NCBI GenBank assembly: GCA_039720395.1
Contig: CM077824.1
Location: forward strand, 17,755,046-17,819,045
Length of the DNA: 64,000 nt
Direction of reading: 5' to 3'
DNA from: Liquidambar formosana
Taxonomy: Eukaryota; Streptophyta; Magnoliopsida; Saxifragales; Altingiaceae
Position 1 is the first letter of the stretch, and each line of letters starts with the position of its first letter. Positions 25,971 to 54,358 of this stretch are shown here, in pieces. The notes under the pieces are model-generated. The model was not told the DNA's origin. It worked only from the letters and a program-made list of their open reading frames with translations, and made no database searches. The position numbers were made by a program, and so were the translations under genes.

Positions 25971-27163
25971 CTAATTTCCTTCATTAAGACAGACTAGGCT
26001 CTCCATGTAGTAGGTCAATACGTCTAATGACCCTTGTACCCCACGAATTTGAATTTCCTTCACTTGCTGGACTCTTGGGTCATATAAAACCAGCTCTCCA
26101 TCATCATCTTTCAATACAACTTCACCATTCTTCATGAAGCCTAATAATGGAAATATGAAATTCACACGCTGATCAAAAGTGAATTGGTTAGTCCAAGACT
26201 CCAGTGCACCATACTCCTTCATTACCCATATATCCACACGCTCCTTCTCCCCTTCTCTAGAATAGACAAACGAAGAAAGCGAATCCGCCATTGCACACTT
26301 GTCTAGTACATAATCATCACGGCAACACTCTGGGAGCTTTCGAACAAGATTTCACCGAATATCTCATTGCCCATGTCAAACGATAAGACAAATTCATAAA
26401 AGGGACCACCTTCCTGATACACACGCGCCAACCAATGAACAATTCCATTCAAAATAGGGTCTTTCGAACAAGATTGGATCACACATGGAAAAACATTTTC
26501 AATAGCTTTCCAAGAATTCGTTCTTAGCGAGTAAAGCTCAGCTTCAGGAGGAGCTTTAAGGCAACGAAGCGCAGCATTACATATACCATTAACACATGGG
26601 ATATATCTATGGTAAACAAACTTTACTACCCTGTAATCATCAATCTGAGGGACATGCCCAAACGCAAAATAGATGCAAGCAAATCGCTCAGTAATAGGAG
26701 TCGATTGAGGAAGGCGCTTGAGCTTTTGAATGGCAGGGTTCCACAGATATAAATCGCGCTGAATCCGTGGGTTTCCAAGACAAGAGAGACAGAGCAACCC
26801 ATTACAATAGCCCTCAACCATCAAACTTTCGACATTTTCCTTGAATGGAAGCTCCAATCTCTTTTGCCCCACAAATGTTTCATCACAACGCAGTGAGAAT
26901 TTGTCTAGATCAGAATCTCGATGCTTGATGAGCACATACCCCTTGTTATTCACACGAGTTTGATTGAGGTGGGTGTTGATGAAATTGGGATCGGAGATCA
27001 GAGCGTGCCAAGATTTGCATACGCACCTGAATCGCATTAGAGATTTGACGGGCAACTGTAAGAGGATGTTGGTGACCATATCGCCCGGCATATCGCGCAG
27101 CGTCGTCGCCATTCTTCTTCTTCTTCTTCTTCTTCGAAGAGATTTGTTAGGGTTTTCTTCCAT
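25971..27163 (-). pseudogene. F-box protein, FBA type, eight-base insertion (copy 3)
   Basis: Starts MEENPNKSL plus an Arg run at 27163. The F-box is at about residues 22-65 (MPGDMVTNILLQLPVKSLM, RFRCVCKSW), then CNGLLCLSC, LWNPAIQKLKRLP, FAFGHVPQIDDYRVVKF, ELYSLRTNSWKAIENV and VLSFDMGNEIF. The frame ends early at 26303. Comparison with copy 2 shows eight extra bases (CGAACAAG on the plus strand, 26341-26348) that shift it; removing them makes the joint match copy 2. The remainder (IWVMKEYGALESW, LYDPRVQQVKEI, YMESLVCLNEGN) is open down to 25971. Otherwise intact, so inactivation looks recent. A truncated F-box protein that keeps the SKP1-binding part could still be made. Confidence 0.85.
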
Positions 27164-27544: not shown

Positions 27545-27593
27545 GGGATTTTTGGCCATAATCCCATAGTGTAAGAGTTCTTTTGTAATAGAC

Positions 27594-28059
27594 TAGGGGT
27601 GCAACTTGGTCCTAATTGGTCGGGTTAGGGGTATATCTGGACCAAACTGAATTAATTCGAGACTTCAAAAATGGGACTCGATCGGACCGACAAAAACGGT
27701 CTAATTCTCGGTTTTTTGTTTTTATGTTTGTTTTGTTTTGTTTCGTTTTTTTGTTTTTTTTTGTAAAAGGTAACAACTTTATTGAATAAGTATTATTATT
27801 TATTCAATAATACTTATAGATGGAGTATAATATATTAATATAAACATATAATTATATATTTTTTTATTTTTTTTATAATTTGGGAATTTGATCCGGGCCG
27901 GTTTTGAAACCCCATAAACTGTGGACCGGATCGAATTCATCGATTCTTAAAATTATGCCCCGAGAACTGGACTGATTAGTGTTTAGCTTGGATCGGACCA
28001 GACCAAATTGCTCGAAACGGTCTGGTTCTCGGGTCTATCCGAACCAGGTTGCACTCCTA
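27594..28059. mobile_element. hAT MITE, 466 bp, perfect 8-bp target duplication
   Basis: The ends TAGGGGTGCAACTTGG and CCAGGTTGCACTCCTA are inverted repeats. TAATAGAC flanks both sides (27586-27593 and 28060-28067). It is rich in GGTCC/GGACC and CGG motifs and codes for nothing. Confidence 0.9.
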
Positions 28060-28633
28060 TAATAGACCCATAAAGAAAAACACTTTTGTGATAATCCCTT
28101 TTCACCCAGTAGTGATAAAAATACACCCATTTTACATTTTAAAACAAATTGCAACCGTGCCATTTGCAACCAATTATGAAGACAAAGACGCAAAACGTCA
28201 TTGCTAGTGATCTCCTTTCTCCAGTGAAGCACACCAAAACCCCATGTTAGGAGAAGAGTTCGTTGGACCACCTCTTCCATTATCACCATTGCAACCATCG
28301 GATTAAGGCACACCAGTTAGGCATCTCAAGCTAGGAGATTGTCGAACAACCTCTTCCATCATCACCATTGCAGTCATTGGTGTGCTTCATTGTGACACAG
28401 TTGAAGATACTTCAACCGTTGCTGACCAGATCTAGAAAAAAAGAAAAAAAAAAAAAAAAAAAAAAAGGGGACAAAGAAGAAGAAATGGCACTAGTTTTAG
28501 AACAAAATAAGGGATAAACACTAGATCTATACAAAAAAAAAATAAATAAATGGAGGATTGCATCCATTGTTGCTGATTAGTCCCACTGTGATTTCACTAT
28601 CGTCGACCAAGAAATTGCTTAATTTGTATACAA

Positions 28634-28893
28634 AATAGTAACAGATTACTATTGTGTGCTTTGAAAAAAATTGTATACAAAAATAGTAATAACTTATTAT
28701 TTTATGCTATAAAAAAACATTACGATGATGTAAACTCAAACACCAGGTAGCAGCCACCCAAAAAACACTATTTATGTTGTGTTACTTTTCACAAATTTAC
28801 TATTTTGTGATTTAAAAATTTTATACACAAAATAGTAACAGTTTACTATTATCTTTGAAAAATCATATAATAACACAGTAATAACTTGCTATT
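28634..28893. repeat. 20-bp spaced palindromes AATAGTA-N6-TACTATT
   Basis: Four units of exact 7-6-7 length: 28634-28653, 28682-28701 (TATTATT arm), 28831-28850 and 28874-28893 (CACAGTA and TGCTATT arms). They share spacing and arm pattern with the MULE-2 motif. Confidence 0.75.
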
Positions 28894-29456
28894 TTACGTT
28901 ATAAAAAAATATTACAATGAATTGAACTCAAACACTAAGCAATAGCCCTCCAAAAATGGACAGATCTAGAGTTGCAAACAAAGACCAAAAAAAAAAAAAA
29001 AAAAAAAAACACAAATCTGGAGTTGCAAACAATAGATCTGGAGTTTGGAGATGAAAAGAAGAAGAAGACAAAGAAGTAACAAATCTGGCTGGGGCAGGGG
29101 GGAAGAGAGAGAGAGAGAGAAAGAAAAGAATGATAGGTGGTGCCCGTAGTGGTGGTGGTGGCCTGTCAGAGAAGAGGCGTCACTTGGCTATCGTCGAAAA
29201 AGGTCTAGTTGTGCCATTGATGAAAAGCCGCTAGAAAAGAAGTCGTTGTCGTTGTCATTTTCATGGAAACCAAAGCCCTCATTTTTTAAACTCAAGTTAT
29301 TACCTTTTAAAGGGTAAAGTGGGGATTTTTAGAATCTCTTTTCCAGCCTTACAACTGATAAAACTATTAAACTAAGGGGTTTTGGAATTAGAAATTCTTT
29401 TGATGGAGTTATTGTTAAAAGGAGACTCCTTATAGGGGTAATTGCTAATATTTCCC

Positions 29457-43299: not shown

Positions 43300-43378
43300 G
43301 GGCTATGAGGTTAATGAATTTGTTTATGGAGCTATTGTTAAAAAACTCTAATAACATGGGACAATGGCCAAAAATCCT
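43300..43378. other. Isolated end of the MULE-2 end family
   Basis: On the reverse strand it reads GGATTTTTGGCCATTGTCCC, close to the ends at 27545 and 44772. No matching second end is visible nearby. Confidence 0.45.
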
Positions 43379-44760: not shown

Positions 44761-45461
44761 AAATAGGATTAGGGATTTTTGGCCAAAACCCCTATGTATA
44801 AGAGTCTTATAGTAATAGAACCCATTTAAACTGTTGTTTATTGAAAACCCCATTTAACAATAAAAAGACCAATAGACCCCTATTTTTAAAACTTCTCCTA
44901 ATTTACAACTGTGCCACGATACACACCCGGGCAAAAAAGGGGGGCTTTTCAGCTTCGCACATTCCATTGTTTCCGGCGGAAATATAGAAACGTACGGGCT
45001 TTCCAAAAAAACAGTTTCCTTATTACACACAGCACCATCGTCTCTCTAGGGTTTTGTCATTCACAAACATACCCCCAAATAGAACCAGCGGTATTGGAGA
45101 CACTGGCTGCCGGAAAGCATTGACGACATAGGGTTTCCAATCGTAGAAACATAGGGCGAAAAGAAGTGAGTAACTTTTTGACAGATTTTTCTTTTTTGCA
45201 TCCTGAATCTAAACAGTAAAATGGTGTCTTTACTGTTAAATCATGTTAATATTGTTCCTAAATGCGTATGTTTTTTAGATGATTTGTTCTTATTTATATG
45301 AAATTTTGTCGACAATAATACAAAATATAGAAACCAACAGTGAATCCATCCATTCTAAATTTCCATCTACTATACTTGTCATGCACATATTTGGATTTCT
45401 TGATGATATATATGGACGACATTATTTGTAAGGTTTGTAAATGGTGTTTTTTGAGCGCGAA

Positions 45462-45770
45462 AACTCAATAAAATATGGTTCCAACTATGTATTGGTGCTG
45501 TTGGGGACCACAAATCGACCCCATTTGGTCAAAATTCCCTTGAATAAAATAGGGATTCAACTGTGTATTGATGCTGTTGGGGACCACAAATCGACCCTAT
45601 TTTGTCAAAATTCCCTTGAATAAAATAGGGATTCAACTGTGTATTGCTGCTGTTGGGGACCACAAATCGACTCCATTTTCTCTTCATTCCTATGTCAATT
45701 TGAATAAAATATAGATCCACCTGTGTATTTGTTTTGTTGGGGACCACAAATCGACCAACATGTTTAACAA
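45462..45770 (+). repeat. Four tandem units of about 77 bp
   Basis: Each unit holds AATAAAATA, TGTGTATT and GCTGTTGGGGACCACAAATCG; the last two have diverged ends. They lie upstream of the Ulp1-like gene, where its promoter should be. The GCTGTTGG part resembles a half-site of the MULE-2 palindrome. Confidence 0.85.
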
Positions 45771-46292
45771 ACTTGGAACTGTACATTTTCACACTTCTAA
45801 CAGCACTGTTTTATTGTCTCACATTAATATTTCATCTTCATGAACTCTGCTTGTGGTTTTTATGTAAAATATTGGTCCAACCGAATCTTGGTACTGTTTC
45901 TTCATATATTACAATTACATAACAACAATTGTCCCCAAATTAGACATGTTCAACAGCATCACCATACTGTTTCTTTCATAATATTTTCATGACTCATATT
46001 GGTAGTTGTGTGCTTCTATGAAACTATGTTTGCTTAGTAAAGTGGTACTGTTGGTTGCTTTAATGAGATAAATTATAAGAAATTTTTAACATATAACACG
46101 TGTAACAGTATCAACTTACTGTTGTGAATTAGTTGTTTACTTTTGAGTGTAATATTGTTTCTTTTCTAGCAACATTAAACTGAAACTGTTTATATATATG
46201 CAACAGTGAAGTGGTGCTGTGTAATGTGCTACAAATCATACACAATATCATTACTAACTGACATATTGTTGACTTATGCCATTGATAATCAG

Positions 46293-49200
46293 AAACGAGT
46301 TCCGATGTTGGCAGCACAAGCCAACAAAAGAAACCGCGGACCTCAACATCTAACCAAATGCGTTGCAACCTACTGGCTGTAAAGAGGTTGGTAAAAAACA
46401 TTAGATTGGAGGAAAGGCATATAGTTGAGCTGAAAAGAACCCCTTTTTGGGGTTTCTTCCAACCTTTTATAGATGCAAAAGTGAAAACAAAATACCTAAA
46501 GAAACATGACAAAGATGTCATCAAAATCATACAAACCTACACACCCAACTACACAGCTTTCGAAATAGGCAAAAAACTCCTAAAATTGAGGAACAGTGAC
46601 TTCTCATTGATATTTGGCATACATGAAGGTACAGAGCCAATTACTTTGGGGCGTGTCCTAAAACCCAACCAACAACTAGTGGATCGTATGTGTAAGGGTG
46701 TGCCTAGATTAACTCCATCATCATTGAAAAGCTCATTAAAGAATCAATGAATGAGCAAAGTAAAGACAACAACGAGGATGTCGCTAAGCTGTTATGTTTG
46801 TATGCCTTTGTTACTGTCTTCTTCACAACATCCGGCACAAACCTCAGCTGGTCGTATGTAAAATATGTGGAGGACTTGGATGCCATGCAAAGTTATGATT
46901 AGCCAGGTGCGATAAAGAACTATTTGGAAGCATCCATCCAAAAATCACACAACATCCCTAAAAATGTGACCGGATGTGTGATTGCACTATTGGTAAGCAA
47001 CCAACTCAAACTATTTATAATAAATTTATATGAATCTGAATAATTATCACTCTCAACTAACATTTTGTACCTTATGTATTGATACAGTATTGGCTTTGCG
47101 AGCACAGCACCATACTAAAGCCAATGAACCAAAAATCAATTCCAAGGTTTGTAAAATGGAACCTCAAAAAGCTGACAAAGGCCATGGAAAGCATTACACT
47201 TTGGACCCTACCAAGTGATGAGGTATTTGATTATTGTTAAAGTTTTGTACTGGTCACAATCACACCATTACACTTATATTTAATATCAACAGTCCCAAAA
47301 TACTGTTTTCAATATTATTAAATGTTTTTTTTTTAAACTAAAAACAGTATCACCACACTGTTACACATACACACATGTTATAAAACTGAGCACAGTAATT
47401 GGTACTGTTGCACGACATATATATAAATAAACTACACTACCAACAGTACACTGGTACTGTTATGTCAAACAATATGTAATACTATCAAAGAAAATGAATT
47501 AAAGTTCCTAATAGTGTTGTTTATGATAATATCAAATAAGCAATGTAACATGTTCTTTTCATGTGCAGATCTATGGTGGTGAGATCACATTTAGCAAAAG
47601 GGAAGGGTGACTTTTCAATGTAAAGAACCAAACACTTGAATTGGGGCGTGATCGCCAACACACTGATGCCCCTGATGAAACAGTTGAAGAAGAAGAAGAT
47701 GTTGATAAGCAGGAAGGTCAAAACGATCAAAGTGACGAAGAAGAAGCTGGCAACAATGGAAGTGGATCTGGTAGTGATGAAAAGGAGGAAGAAGTTGGGG
47801 ATGAGGAGCTTGAAACTACCATGCATAACATAGGCAAATTTGCCAACCCCCCAAACCTCGGAGATAAAAAGGAAGACCCAGCAAAACAAAGGATGATTTG
47901 CTTGCACAACTCAGTATGAAGGTTGAAGAACTGCAAAAAGAAGGGGCTGCAAAGGATAAACAAGTAGAAAACCTACAGTTGCGAATTCAAAGCTACAGAC
48001 TCAGCTGCTAGAGATCCAAAAAAAATATGAAGCAGCTCTAGAAGAATTGCAAAGCAAAAAGGCATAAAATATTTCACTTTACTGTTTCTAATGATTAAAG
48101 TAGATGTTGTTACTTTTTGAAATTGTGTTTTACATATAATAGCACCCTTTTACTGTTGCTATTATGTTTTCACAATAACAGCACCACTCTACTGTTGGTA
48201 GATTGTTTTGCTATAATATAATCACTTTGCTGTTTTGAAGGATGATTTGGGTGAAGACACCATGGAAATCAATGTACATAACATCACCCAAGCGTTTGAA
48301 AAGGTGGCCCAAAATCCAAAGGAAGTGAAGAAAACATCCCGTGCACCCAAAAAGCTACCAACTCCTTCCTCTCTTGCTAAGCGTGTCAAGTCCAAACAAG
48401 GGACACGAAAAGATAGTAAAAAACCTGAGTACACGTATGAGCCAAGCAAAAAGGGGAAGGGGGTTAAAAAAGCAACCGCTAAAGAAGACAAAAAAGTAGG
48501 AGACCAAGTTACCGATGAAGATACAATTGATGTGGATGACTTTGTTGACAAAATACCATCCCATGCAGATGGTATACAACTCACATTCCCCACTCAGAGT
48601 CCTATATCAAAGTTGCTGACAAATGAAGAGAGGCAAACACTTAAACAAATGTTTCAAAAGGAATTCTCCAAGTAATATTTTATGCAATATCTTTTAACAC
48701 AAACCATATAATCTATTCACACCAATATGATAATACTAATTGTTTTTCATACATGCAGTGCAACGATTTGGCGTTCATCAAATGCTTCCAATATAGTCCA
48801 ACTAAAGAACATCAGGCAACTACTCATTGAAGGCGACACAAGTGGCAATGTAAGTATAGAGTATCACTTTCGTTTTTCTTGTGGATTTTTGCATAGACAA
48901 AATGACATTACTATTGTGAGAAATCTTTTGAACAGCACCAACTTGTTTTTGTGTGTCTATTTCAACAGCACCACTGTATTGTTCCTAGCGTATTTTCTGC
49001 TAACAGCGCCACTATATTGTTTATGTATATTTAAACAGCACCAGTTTACTATTACGCAACAGCACCACTACACTGTTGACAGTTACTTTATTTAGTAGGA
49101 AACATTTCTAATGTCCACATTGAATATAATGCTTAATTTGACTTAATAATTTGCAGGTCATCGATGCATTTGGAGCCATTATCACATCTGACACAAAAGA

Positions 49201-50126
49201 TAAAAAGCTCACATTCTACATCCCAACCACAAGCTTGGTAATCATGATGCAAAAACATACTTGCAAACAACATATCATACTTAAATATGTGTGTACTGAG
49301 TATGTGTTTATACATTGCAGATCTATTTTGATAGCCTAGATGCTGAATTGAGATCTAAGTGGTTTGATGATAAAGTTATCGAAGCAGCCATCTCTAATAA
49401 CAGATATCACCTCTATCCCCTCATTGCAGCTACTAGACCTGGTGGAGCTGAAAACCATTGGACTTTGCTTGTGCACGACACGCAAAGCGGAACATGGAGA
49501 CATTACAACTCCATGCGCCCACGAGAAGTTATTGAAGACAACCACTACAACAAAGTAAAAAAAGTGGTAATAACATACACATAACCAAAAATTTACTTTA
49601 TAAAAAATCTTACTAATTACCATATTAATATGATCCAACTATTGTCAGGCGGAGTACGTGCACCAAATGGGGCTACAAGACAATCAAGGTTAGCAAATTG
49701 AGGTTGAATCTGTAGAGAATACACCCCAACAAAGCGAATACTCGTGAGTATTTCATTACTATTTTGTTTGCTTCATATTCATATCATGCAACAGTATTAT
49801 GACACTGTCATAAACTTTACAAACAAATATGCATCAACGCTTCTCATTGTATCATTGTTTTTTGTAGACTCGATTGTGGAATCATTGTATGCAACCTCAT
49901 TCTTGATTTCTCCTATGGAATGAACATTACACAGACCATGACTCTAAAAGAAGTTCAAAGCTTTAGAAGGGACATCATCCGAGAAATCATTTTCGACGGT
50001 GACTGGTCATAGAATCCAAACTGGGAAAGGCAAACGACTACTCCAAAAGAGAGCGATGCAATCATCGTCAAGCCACTCTCCATTGCATATCCAAAAACAA
50101 AAGGGGCCAAGAGAAAGCAAACTTGA
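46293..50126 (+). pseudogene. Ulp1-like cysteine protease gene of MULE-2
   Basis: Exons traced by splice sites: 46293 to about 46996, 47088-47222, about 47569-48066, 48241-48671, 48759-48849, 49157-49237, 49321-49566, 49649-49743, 49868-50126. The N-terminal part (LIFGIHEG, YWLCEHSTIL) resembles the domain found before the protease in plant MULE Ulp1 proteins. An acidic segment and a coiled coil follow, then a basic Lys-rich segment. The C48 protease core has His (HWTLLVHD, 49456-49458) and Cys (DCGIIVC, 49875-49877), but the expected Asp in the YDS position is Asn (HYNSM, 49507-49509). In-frame stops lie at 46900, 47608, 49691 and 50010, and frameshifts near 46725 and 47890. So it is inactive. 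Its source family may remove SUMO-like tags or bind DNA for the transposon. Confidence 0.75.
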
Positions 50127-50984
50127 GATGTCTATGAGTACATTATTTGGCTGAAACTTATGAACAGTCTACTTAAAATTCATTTGTGAAATGGGTGTAC
50201 ATATAGTTCACTAATTACAAATTTCTTTTTTTATGTTCTTTAATAGTAACAATTCAAATTTACTGTTATATGGTTTCAATTGTGCACAAACTTGCCAACT
50301 TATATGATTGTTGATCTGCAAAATGTTGCCAACAGGTTAATTCATCGCAATACTTCTCATGTGGTAATTTCTAACTAACAATCCACCAACAGTACCCCGT
50401 TACTGTTGGAAACTAAAAAATAACAACTCAATAAACGCTAATAATTGATTACACCCATCATATTACTGTGTGTCCAAACAAAGTGGTAATAGCATAGTTG
50501 GTTCCTATTGAAGATTACACGATTGGAAATCTTTCAAACGCGTCACTAATAAGTTGCACTTCAAATCAAAGTACCATATATCGTTACCCTACAGTATCAT
50601 TACGTCACAGTTAACAATTACAAAATCCAATAACCACTAAAATCTTAATCATTAACTACCTCCCTTCAATGAACATCAGTTTCACTCGTGTCCAATTACA
50701 AATTAACATAGCAGTCACAGTTCATGACAAATTGACATTGGTGCTATTTGTTATTTTATGTTATGGATAGTATTACTATCCTGTTGTAAGTTTGAATTAA
50801 CATTTCATCCGTATTCATTTGCAAAATATATATATATCATAAAATCATATATTCGAAAGTGTAACAATTTGTCTTAAAAAAATGTCACTCAATGCCTTAA
50901 AAATTGGACATCGTAAAAACACTACAACCAACTCAAAAACATTGTAAACTGCTAACAACTAAAAAAAACAGACACAAACAAATG
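50127..50984. other. Spacer between the two MULE-2 genes
   Basis: AT-rich convergent 3' region without ORFs. Contains the palindrome at 50388-50407 and several single arms (CACAGTT, ACAGTATC). Confidence 0.6.
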
Positions 50985-53359
50985 CTATATTGGTTCTTGA
51001 CATGTCTTCTTATTATGAGTTCCAAGCCTTCCACATCTACCACATTTGATTTGCCTTATCTTCTCTCCTCTGGAAGGTATCTTCCTATTCTTTGGTCTCC
51101 CCGCAGGCCGTCTTGTGTTGGGTGGAAGTACAAATTCACAATTTTCTTCGTTCACTCCCATTTTTAGAGCCGTAGAAATGGGATGAATAGGTTGAGAGTA
51201 AGCTTCACGAAATGAAGATGTGTAAAAGTAATCCTCTACATAGCCATTAATGTCACCACCACTGGCTTGAATTGCTACAGCAGCGTACGAGCATGGAAAC
51301 CCATTTATTTGCCATTGATAACAAGTACACATGCAATTTAAAATGTCAACAGTAACAGACGGGTACGAATGAACCTCGAACACACTATCACTGGATATGC
51401 TAACCCTCCACTTCCTTCCTTTATCCAACTCTTCACCCAACCTCTCATCCATCTTTGGGCATAATACAGTATTCCAAGAGTCTGCTTCCAACCTCCTATT
51501 GCACATTTGCGCCATAATCTGGGATCTAATCAAATCAACCATGTTTGTAATTGGGAGGAAACGAGCTTCCTTAATCCAAGTATTAAACGATTCAGCAACA
51601 TTAGAGCATATCTCACCATACCACTGCCCTTGGAAGTACGCGTTCGCCTAGCATTGGAAAGGACGGTCATTAAGGAAAAATTGCACTTGTTCCTTCCCTT
51701 CAGTCAACAACTCAGACAACTTCTCCTTAAACTTATGCTCAGTTGGAGCATATGCACATTCAAGAAATAAAAACACCATTCGATCTTTAAATGACTTATG
51801 ACCCCTAACCTTGTCTCGCAAATTTATCTTCAAATGATGAAGGCAATAGGCATGGTATGCTGTAGGAAATATTTTTGGCAGCGCCGACCTCAAGCCATTG
51901 TTTCGATCTGAAATAAACGTGAGTTGCCTCACATCCCCTATAATTTCACGCAAATTCTCAAAAAACTATCTCCAATTATCTTCCGACTCAGCATTAACCA
52001 CAGCAAACGCCAACGGGAATAGCCCTGCAACATAAAAAATAATAATGCATTCTTCTTTTAATAATGTTGAACAACGTAATCAATCAATAACTCATGTGAC
52101 AGTAATACATTACTGTCTCACTCATACATGCAAATAAAGACTCAACAGTACCAACATATAGTACTATCATACAAAACACTACAATCTTCCACAATCTCAT
52201 TGAACATGAACAACTCACTCTTGCACTTTAAACTTCAATTACATTGAACAACATTAACACCATAAAACATACCTTGGTTCCCATCCTTTGCCGTCGCAGC
52301 TAACAATTGCCCTTTGTACCTACTTTTCAAAAAGGTACCATCCATAAACAACATTGGTCGACAGTATGTGAAGCCATGAATACATGCATAGAAAGAAGCA
52401 AAAAACCTCCTAAAACGATTACTACATTCATCCATATCCAAAACAAGTTTGCTGCCCGGATTATTCCTCATTGACTCCTCAATGAACCAACGAAGTTCGT
52501 CAAATGACTCAGAGTTATCACCATACAAACAATTTCGCGCCTTCTCAATACCCATCCACGCATTGGTGTAAGATATATCCAGCCTATACTTCCTTTTAAA
52601 ATCCCACCGAACTTCAACAGCACTCAAGAGCAGCTTGTCTCGCACAACCTCTACCATCTCGGACGAAACAATGTCAAATCCCATCCTACTATGCTTGGTT
52701 GTCCGAATAGCTGCCCCACATGTGTGAACATTGTTCAGTTGACGTATGTAGAACCACCCATTTGCATGCTCCATGCGTGTATGCACTCGCCACTCGCAAC
52801 CCCTTCGCTCCTTCAACCTACATACAGCTATTACTCTATATGATTCATTCCTCACAAAATCATAGTTAAATCCATTTTCAACTGAATATTTGCGCAACGC
52901 AACTCTAAATCCTTTGACGCCATCTTTGAAACACTGACCCACATTCTTTATCAAGTGTGCCCAACTAGCACTAAGTAAAGTCCGCTCCTCATGCGAACAA
53001 AAAGAAAGCAACAAATCAATTTTCATATCATTAAACTCTCCTCCCACAACTTCACCATTACAAATATTCAACACACCGCCTCCCCCCCCCATGCAACCAT
53101 TATCTACCACCTCAATGTCAAATTGAATCATGTGCATACGCCTTCCAATGGATAACATTGTTCTTACATTAACATCATTGACTATCATAATTTTCGTATG
53201 ACTAGGAAGAGAATAAAACAGCCCAACCATCCCTGGCCTCAAACTCCTCCATTTCGATATAACAAACCCCTGAATATCATCAAAGGATGTGTGTGCATCT
53301 ACAGGCATAACAGCCATCCTTCCGCCAAAAGTACACATTAAACATATGTTCTCATCCAT
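50985..53359 (-). pseudogene. MURA-type transposase of MULE-2, two stop codons
   Basis: Exon 1 is 53359-52273 and exon 2 is 52024-50985, with a GT-AG intron in phase 1. Domains: PB1-like N-terminus (1-75), MuDR DNA-binding region (about 165-235, RRGCEWRVHTRM), and the MULE domain with Asp340 in LFMDGTFLK and the SDRNNG block. The HAYCLHHLKINL block, NVAESFNTWI, a SWIM-like finger and a C-terminal CCHC-like knuckle (CGRCGRLGTHNKKTC) follow. TAG stops at 51967-51965 and 51650-51648 break exon 2; both sit where related proteins usually have Trp. The SWIM finger reads CSYA where CSHA is usual. The rest of the frame is open, so it decayed lately. Confidence 0.85.
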
Positions 53360-54358
53360 TGCAATTCAACTGGATATATAAACCTGTATAAATAAACAAA
53401 CAATATCAATTTATTATGTGAATATAAACAACACAACTCATACACCAAAACCATAAACAACATGTCTTCCATTCTCCCAACAGTACCACTTTTCTACTCA
53501 TACATAAATAAACATATAATTGACAATAGACAGTATCATGATACTGTTTGGACGGTAAATTTAAACTTCCACCTACTTCTTTCTAAAAACAGAACAAACC
53601 AGTAATTGTCAATTAACCACACCAAACAAATCCATCACAATCGACAATCTCTAACCTACTAATCAACTTGAATGACACACATCCACAAATACTCACCCTC
53701 TAGTACGAAGCCCACTCCATTCTCAAATGACGATGCATTAAACATGTAAAAAAAACTTATAACTAACAAATTATATGTACACAACTTACGTGTACAACAG
53801 TTGAATCCCGTATAAGGAAATCCACACAAAACCCCAACGATATTCAACAACCACCACTCGATGCAATACTTTGTACTTTCCCAAAATCAACAATATGATC
53901 ACTTTCACCCCTGATTTCCCATCTAAACCCCAAACAATCACCGAAAAACTGAGAAATCGCTCGACAAAGAAGAAACTATGAACATCTTCAAACCCAAACG
54001 AAATCCCTTGGAGCCGCTTGAAGTGAGCGAAACATTGGAAAATCAAATTTGAATTTCCACCTTCTGCGCTGGTTTGAAGAGAGAGAAACATAATGTAACC
54101 AAAAATATCTCTCCCACGAAATCAAATCCCCCAAAAAAAGGTTACAGTTTTTCCTCTTCATATGGAAAACTGGGTTTTCCATATCTGCTGTACAAATAAT
54201 GCCAAAATGTCAAATGAAGGGTATATCTAGTATAAAATACATGGTTTTACCTTACCGCAAATAACAACTTAAAAAAAGGGGTTATTAAATTACTAAATCT
54301 TACATAGGGTTTTTTTGCTAAAGTCATATCTCTAATAGGGGTTATTGCTAATTTTCCC

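Follow-up and report, generated by a model that had tools for sequence, protein, structure and literature searches.

Dedicated, sequence-specific anti-silencing proteins of transposons are described in the literature from the VANDAL elements of Arabidopsis. One of them, VANC21, binds the motif YAGTATTAY, which is dense in the non-coding DNA of VANDAL21 and runs in one orientation within tandem repeats, and the motif of VANC6 differs from it, as set out in passages of PMC5735166. RNA-directed DNA methylation (RdDM) acts on the same regions as the VANC21 motifs (PMC10398659, in part). Passages of Ikeda and others (PMC5418596) report that PMD proteins have been captured by Mutator-like elements (MULEs) and speculate on a use in transposon anti-silencing; a survey table in PMC6446971 lists PMD and/or DUF in half of the VANDAL members; and MULEs containing ULP1 genes, including KAONASHI, are recorded from Arabidopsis, melon, rice, and grapevine in part of PMC2528002. 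Among the titles and abstract beginnings found in searches of openly licensed papers, none describes a VANC-type site outside Arabidopsis. Here we analyze a stretch of 64,000 nucleotides of the Liquidambar formosana genome (the window; contig C5, 17755046-17819045), in which an element called MULE-2 carries a 20-bp spaced dyad throughout its non-coding DNA, together with an Ulp1-like gene. We consider it likely that the dyads are binding sites of the element's own Ulp1-like protein, serving a VANC-type anti-silencing of its own family; binding, dimerization, and the removal of methylation are what we infer. The gene is called the reader gene below. It lies beside the transposase gene in a single MULE, with its C48 domain opposite to the transposase:

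44772..54358, no strand assigned: MULE-2, an autonomous-type Mutator-like element, now broken, with imperfect terminal inverted repeats
44772..44806, plus strand: left end of MULE-2, beginning GGGATTTTTGGCCAAAACCCC, common to family members
54325..54358, minus strand: right end of MULE-2, its reverse complement beginning GGGAAAATTAGCAATAACCCC, common to family members
46358..50012, plus strand: reader (Ulp1-like) gene, with a PMD/DUF1985-like domain, an acidic and probably coiled-coil middle, and a C48 (Ulp1) domain
46358-46992, 47088-47222, 47569-48062, 48241-48671, 48759-48849, plus strand: proposed reader exons 1-5, splice boundaries read by hand
49157-49237, 49321-49554, 49649-49743, 49868-50012, plus strand: proposed reader exons 6-9, splice boundaries read by hand
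50985..53359, minus strand: MULE transposase gene, exons 53359-52273 and 52024-50985, with Pfam matches to DBD_Tnp_Mut (6e-13), MULE (1.5e-6), and SWIM (3.5e-4)

The exons were read manually from splice sites and open frames, the end of reader exon 3 being the least certain boundary. Frameshifts and stops disrupt the reader gene and stops in exon 2 disrupt the transposase gene, so that MULE-2 is dead. No clean target-site duplication was seen at this copy. Another locus, L008, is a copy of MULE-2 with 94% identity across 8.9 kb.

The preliminary description of this DNA had reported a spaced palindrome, AACAGTA-N6-TACTGTT, spread through the non-coding parts of MULE-2 and missing from its exons, and this distribution is borne out. 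With up to three mismatches, the window holds 36 matches where 5.7 are expected and the maximum in 100 shuffles is 16; 26 of the 36 fall within MULE-2. A 20-bp weight matrix, about AACAG[TC]A-nCAnnn-TACTGTT, finds 33 units of at least 12 bits in the element, roughly twice the fifteen or so first counted. All 33 are in its 5119 non-coding bp and none in its 4468 coding bp (36 and 1 at 10 bits), a placement that depends on the manual exon reading. Matrices built from one half of the element were then applied to the other at 12 bits: the right half yielded 11 units (Markov mean 0.37, maximum 3) and the left half 17 (mean 0.29, maximum 2), none of them coding; in the other 54.4 kb of the window the left-trained matrix found 7 units and the right-trained one 5. 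The placement first proposed stands for the regions upstream of both genes, between the genes, and in the transposase intron, and the number of reader introns with units falls from five to four, with 13 units:

45212..46221, no strand assigned: 11 units upstream of the reader gene (45212, 45483, 45559, 45635, 45799, 45879, 45952, 46033, 46104, 46171, 46202)
45467..45778, plus strand: four 76-bp tandem repeats; the dyads of three are among the 33, and that of the fourth (45719) scores under 12 bits when the 20-bp matrix is used
47288..47461, no strand assigned: 3 units in reader intron 2 (47288, 47343, 47442)
48067..48234, plus strand: 4 units in reader intron 3 (48067, 48138, 48177, 48215)
48931..49077, plus strand: 5 units in reader intron 5 (48931, 48964, 49002, 49034, 49058)
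49790..49809, two matrices disagreeing on the strand: 1 unit in reader intron 8, containing CAGTATTAT
50248..50785, plus strand: 3 units between the genes (50248, 50388, 50766)
52098..52222, plus strand: 3 units in the transposase intron (52098, 52144, 52203)
53399..53548, plus strand: 3 units upstream of the transposase gene (53399, 53479, 53529)

Across the 718-Mb genome the exact dyad occurs 938 times and a reversed control 11 times, an enrichment; equal density in random AT-rich sequence was the outcome that the preliminary description had named as counting against it. From the first 50 places listed for the exact dyad, 44 were fetched; they fall in 34 loci, all on contig C1, a sample that represents the start of one contig, was picked via the dyad, and is not random. 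All 34 loci are copies of this MULE group, assigned by a reader or transposase gene, by long stretches resembling MULE-2 or other members, or by the family ends. The weakest assignments are L005 and L031, whose ends have 5-8 mismatches in 28 and whose target duplications match at 8/9 and 5/9, and L029, with one end only. Both ends were located in 22 elements, which contain 123 non-exact units in 37.4 kb inside them, against 9 units of any kind in 125.2 kb outside. Perfect 9-bp target duplications flank 13 of the 22. Most of these elements (19) measure 1.0-2.1 kb and match none of the MULE-2 proteins; the other three (L013, L016, and L017), of 2.5-4.3 kb, are related to MULE-2 but shorter. An independent origin of the site arrays in the short elements was considered and is not supported, as 22 of 24 sequences form one homology group.

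The preferred spacing of 6 claimed at the outset is confirmed in two tests covering spacings 0 to 30, and no other spacing is as frequent. In the MULE-2 analysis, convergent arms with at most one mismatch each are found 13 times at spacing 6 and 0-2 times at each of the others. In MULE-2 and the 34 loci taken together (35 sequences, exact dyads excluded), spacing 6 has 145 cases, followed by spacing 0 with 18 and spacing 18 with 14. The consensus of 289 units is AACAGTA[CT]CAnTtTACTGTT, frequently preceded by C and followed by G. Of the 7-6-7 dyad first described, the two arms and the spacing stand, and the symmetry does not. Among the 50 listed exact dyads, which were selected irrespective of the spacer, 42 have CA at spacer positions 2-3 when read in one orientation only, 1 has it in both, and 7 have it in neither; 24 of their 28 distinct spacers contain it. 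Because CA lies on one side of the spacer only in 42 of 50, the site has a direction, and a plain palindrome is ruled out.

This polarity allows the orientation of neighbouring units to be read. Within 130 bp there are 196 neighbouring pairs, 125 in the same direction and 71 opposite; the former are often 38-48 bp apart and the distances of the latter have maxima at 73 and 81 bp. In MULE-2 the units that precede the reader gene mostly alternate from 45799 onward, and runs of this kind before the reader gene are seen in several elements:

Alternating-unit stretches: L023 976-1361; L022 4593-5049; L017 4651-5038; window 45799-46171

As a separate observation, steps of about 73 and 81 bp add up to a repeat of about 154 bp, near nucleosome length. 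The VANDAL21 motif as the preliminary description gave it, YAGTATTAY, agrees with passages of PMC5735166. Identity with this motif was rejected as the main link: MULE-2 contains YAGTATTAY four times, twice within a dyad unit, and lacks the VANC6 motif altogether.

Sites upstream of both genes and in introns would also be expected if the element had captured binding sites of a host transcription factor to drive its transcription, for example a MYB-like one, whose core we take the arm CAACAG to resemble. All 34 loci in the sample belong to this MULE group, and a host factor would not usually have as its site a dyad fixed at 20 bp, with CA on one side and spacers that depend on the clade; we give this explanation a slim chance.

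What can be said of the protein supports the VANC-like reading of the preliminary description at the level of predicted fold, as the placement of the sites does at the level of distribution. Most single reader exons gave weak or meaningless Pfam matches; once joined, with X at the breaks, they matched PMD (1.2e-7) and Peptidase_C48 (5.6e-7). Homologs have matches to DUF1985 (P0063, 2.3e-4; P0066, 3.8e-4; P0065, 0.004; P0070, 0.0074), all under the curated cut-off, and a search of NCBIfam found no match. A model of the N-terminal domain of a Camellia homolog, P0069, has a predicted fold that matches the DNA-bound part of VANC21 (PDB 9lnj). An earlier model, of P0062, had a pLDDT of 38.7 and was not used for the fold search; a long helix in it (354-439) is a weak hint of a coiled coil. 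In the C48 domain of the window copy the His and Cys motifs are readable, and where we presume the Asp of the protease triad to lie, this copy and P0066 read Asn. Relatives of the reader are found in Camellia, Rhododendron, Orobanche, and Prunus. In a viral structure library, the unnamed 805-residue BFVD entry A0A890CAY5 also matches the reader fold (E 8.7e-5); it could be of plant origin and have entered a viral record. The reader domain is under purifying selection, with dN/dS of 0.18-0.40 in all six pairs for its first part and of 0.09-0.31 for its second part in three of the pairs with a value.

The preliminary description had left open whether the Ulp1-like gene or the transposase reads the sites, and the predicted VANC21 fold favours the former. 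The transposase is kept as a rival: its gene sits in the same element, the protein contains a DBD_Tnp_Mut domain, and dN/dS for exon 1 is 0.18-0.47 in 7 of 7 pairs. A transposase must act at the ends, from which the motif is missing, and it is the product of the reader gene whose predicted fold is that of a protein known to bind a motif, so that recognition through the DNA-binding domain of the transposase appears quite improbable. (As to its grouping, the protein-database matches that carry organism names are from Liquidambar, Camellia, and Rhododendron.)

A different possibility accepts the element's own reader and gives its sites a role in transcription or transposition, as for TnpA in Spm, rather than in the removal of silencing. 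TnpA and MURA act in transposition as well, and the TnpA sites are subterminal, unlike the sites here. Short elements with no match to the MULE-2 proteins retain clusters of sites, which fits such a role, and as element-encoded factors TnpA and MURA are reported to lower methylation too (PMC10398659, in part). The sites in MULE-2 and its relatives are central and intronic, with no unit of at least 12 bits closer than 130 bp to an end in any of the 22 two-ended elements, and the predicted fold match is to an anti-silencing protein. On this balance a role in transcription or transposition is unlikely, though it deserves more weight than a reading by the transposase.

Under the anti-silencing interpretation that we prefer, the N-terminal domain, of the PMD/DUF1985 kind, would read the half-site AACAGTA, and a dimer, held by a probable central coiled coil, would occupy the 7-6-7 dyad, where nCA extends one of the two half-sites. 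With sites dispersed through its non-coding DNA, the element could be covered by the protein over its full length. By analogy with VANC on VANDAL copies, it could undo the silencing of its own family and of the short relatives that have sites and no gene.

Copies of the reader gene provide a further view of the link between protein and sites. A protein search of the genome with P0062 returned at least 55 matches on the scale of exon 1, at least 39 of them without a stop and several, from different contigs, equal in both score and length; for this reason the reader family seems to have been recently active, and a recent spread is suggested. Six places were fetched by the reader protein and not by the motif (L041, L042, L045, L046, L047, and L048). 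In L046-L048, where the reader is 55-56% identical to that of MULE-2, there are 7, 6, and 6 dyads of spacing 6, numbers never reached in 200 Markov runs, so dyads do lie near some independently found reader genes. Many of these sites have CG in place of CA, or TACTGTAC in place of TACTGTT, and the sites of L024 and L038 favour nCAnCA. Of eight Fisher tests between clades, five gave p ≤0.0011 and three p 0.16-0.49, at positions that were picked after inspection and with sites that are non-independent within one element. The differences in spacer and arm between clades fit readers and sites changing together, and are no proof of it.

The sites could also be passive remains of tandem duplication with no function. 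Some units lie within the 76-bp repeats, same-direction neighbours recur at short distances, and extra conservation in the 5' region is weak. Against this stand the exclusion of units from coding DNA, the fixed spacing across diverged copies, the persistence of sites in loci where the reader is only 55% identical, and, in an older pair, aligned arms that are less diverged than their flanks: between MULE-2 and L023 the arms differ by 16.5-19.7%, other non-coding DNA by 23.6-23.8%, and the spacer by 25-27%. We regard this explanation as barely credible. Changes within the sites may reflect decay. Among 293 non-exact units, C to T or G to A changes in the CAG/CTG of the arms number 74, 70, 41, and 29, and there are also 74 cases of T to C at position 6, 44 of T to C at position 14, and 38 of A to G at position 1. 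The variant AATAGTA-N6-TACTATT occurs 963 times in the genome (the reversed pattern, 30 times) and could represent decay or a second specificity; decay is the simpler reading because transitions in CAG/CTG fit the loss of methylated cytosines, a process that leaves the T to C and A to G changes unexplained. Taking the divergence and the transitions together, our reading is that the sites were conserved earlier and that methylated cytosines were later lost where copies had been silenced.

Several results weigh against the anti-silencing interpretation. On the side of the protein, the PMD match of the window reader scores 31.7 bits where the curated cut-off is 34.9 (the homolog P0072 reaches 47.5), and DUF1985 on the window piece, at E 0.017, is also below its curated cut-off. 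DUF287 had no Pfam match in the exon pieces, in joined exons 1-2 and 5-9, or in the homologs, including full-length P0062, window exon 3 being unscanned. The modelled protein is the Camellia homolog, 34% identical to the window protein over 119 residues, and its model and VANC21 share 13% identity; a profile of reader homologs run against the PDB found SUMO proteases and not the VANC21 chain. The second part of the reader domain has a dN/dS of 0.90 against L008. On the side of the sites, L041, L042, and L045 have 0, 1, and 1 dyads, L045 although its reader is 82% identical to those of L046-L048, and these last three are nearly one case because their reader domains are 96-99% identical to each other. 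The sites of VANC21 are arrayed one way, whereas 71 of 196 neighbour pairs here are opposite, and only part of the units lie in tandem repeats. Conservation is uneven: against L023, 14.8% of the arms of MULE-2 sites lie in gaps, compared with 7.5%; against L018, arms and other non-coding DNA diverge by 16.1 and 13.2% or by 10.5 and 14.2%, depending on which copy defines the sites; and in the young pair with L008 it is the arms that are the more diverged (6.9-7.2%, with other non-coding DNA at 4.8-4.9%). The footprint in the 5' region is weak (0.76 vs 0.70), with 120 of 845 circular shifts as good or better, in an alignment whose row L016 is poorly aligned.

The window contains other sequences of interest. 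A smaller element has the same type of ends as MULE-2, and there is a further candidate end and an open frame:

27545..29456, no strand assigned: related non-autonomous element with the same end type, an internal duplication, and four dyads of AATAGTA-N6-TACTATT or near (28634, 28682, 28831, 28874)
43358-43378, minus strand: end-like sequence GGATTTTTGGCCATTGTCCC of the same MULE group, with no partner end located
about 26500-27115, minus strand: open frame resembling an F-box protein gene, by eye

If the proposal for MULE-2 is true, it would account for what Ulp1 and PMD genes may do in plant MULEs, offer a new handle for targeted demethylation, and make the co-evolution of reader and site traceable across subfamilies. 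MULE-2 offers a second, independent candidate pair of reader and sites, in a genome with at least 39 stop-free reader exons. A broader proposal, which we hold tentatively and think somewhat doubtful, is that the PMD/DUF1985 domain of plant MULEs is in general one rapidly re-targeted DNA-reader fold, of which VANC would be one branch, each subfamily having dispersed sites matched to its own reader; in the present case a dimer on a polar dyad would be tethered to a SUMO-type protease. The possible targets of this protease would be silencing proteins at the copy to which the reader is bound, and host PMD proteins, MAIN and MAIL1 among them, would be related to transposon readers that recognize specific sequences.

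Compared with other systems in which an element encodes a factor acting on its own family, this one shares features with several. With TnpA of maize Spm and MURA of MuDR, which lower the methylation of their own families, it has an element-encoded factor in common, a lowering of methylation being presumed here; the effect of MURA is located at the terminal inverted repeats, unlike the dispersed sites of MULE-2 (both from PMC10398659, in part). As in KAONASHI and other ULP1-containing MULEs, a C48 (Ulp1-like) gene lies opposite to the transposase; a dispersed motif or a DNA-reading role has no mention in the available passages of PMC2528002. A PMD-like domain within a MULE recalls the captured PMD proteins, of which the PMD-C type is fused to transposases in grasses and Amborella, while here it belongs to a separate gene with C48 (PMC5418596, in part). 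The closest likeness is to VANC21 and VANC6. In each case the gene lies beside a MULE transposase, the motif is dense in the non-coding DNA of its own family, rare elsewhere, and variable among related subfamilies, and for VANC21 a fold of the DNA-bound part is predicted to be shared. The differences lie in the site, here a 20-bp polar dyad and there YAGTATTAY or AGTTGTMC, in the protein, which here includes a C48 protease domain and probably a coiled coil, with DUF287 not found as far as scanned, and in the host, which is outside Brassicaceae. Given the different site, its mixed orientation, the C48 domain, and the absence of DUF287 from what was scanned, we treat the system as a relative and do not file it as VANC, which it resembles by its layout and its predicted fold. 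A tree of another order (Saxifragales) has the predicted fold in common with VANC21 and arranges its target sites similarly. Most likely, then, self-recognition of the VANC type exists outside Brassicaceae, here through a protein with an additional C48 protease domain.

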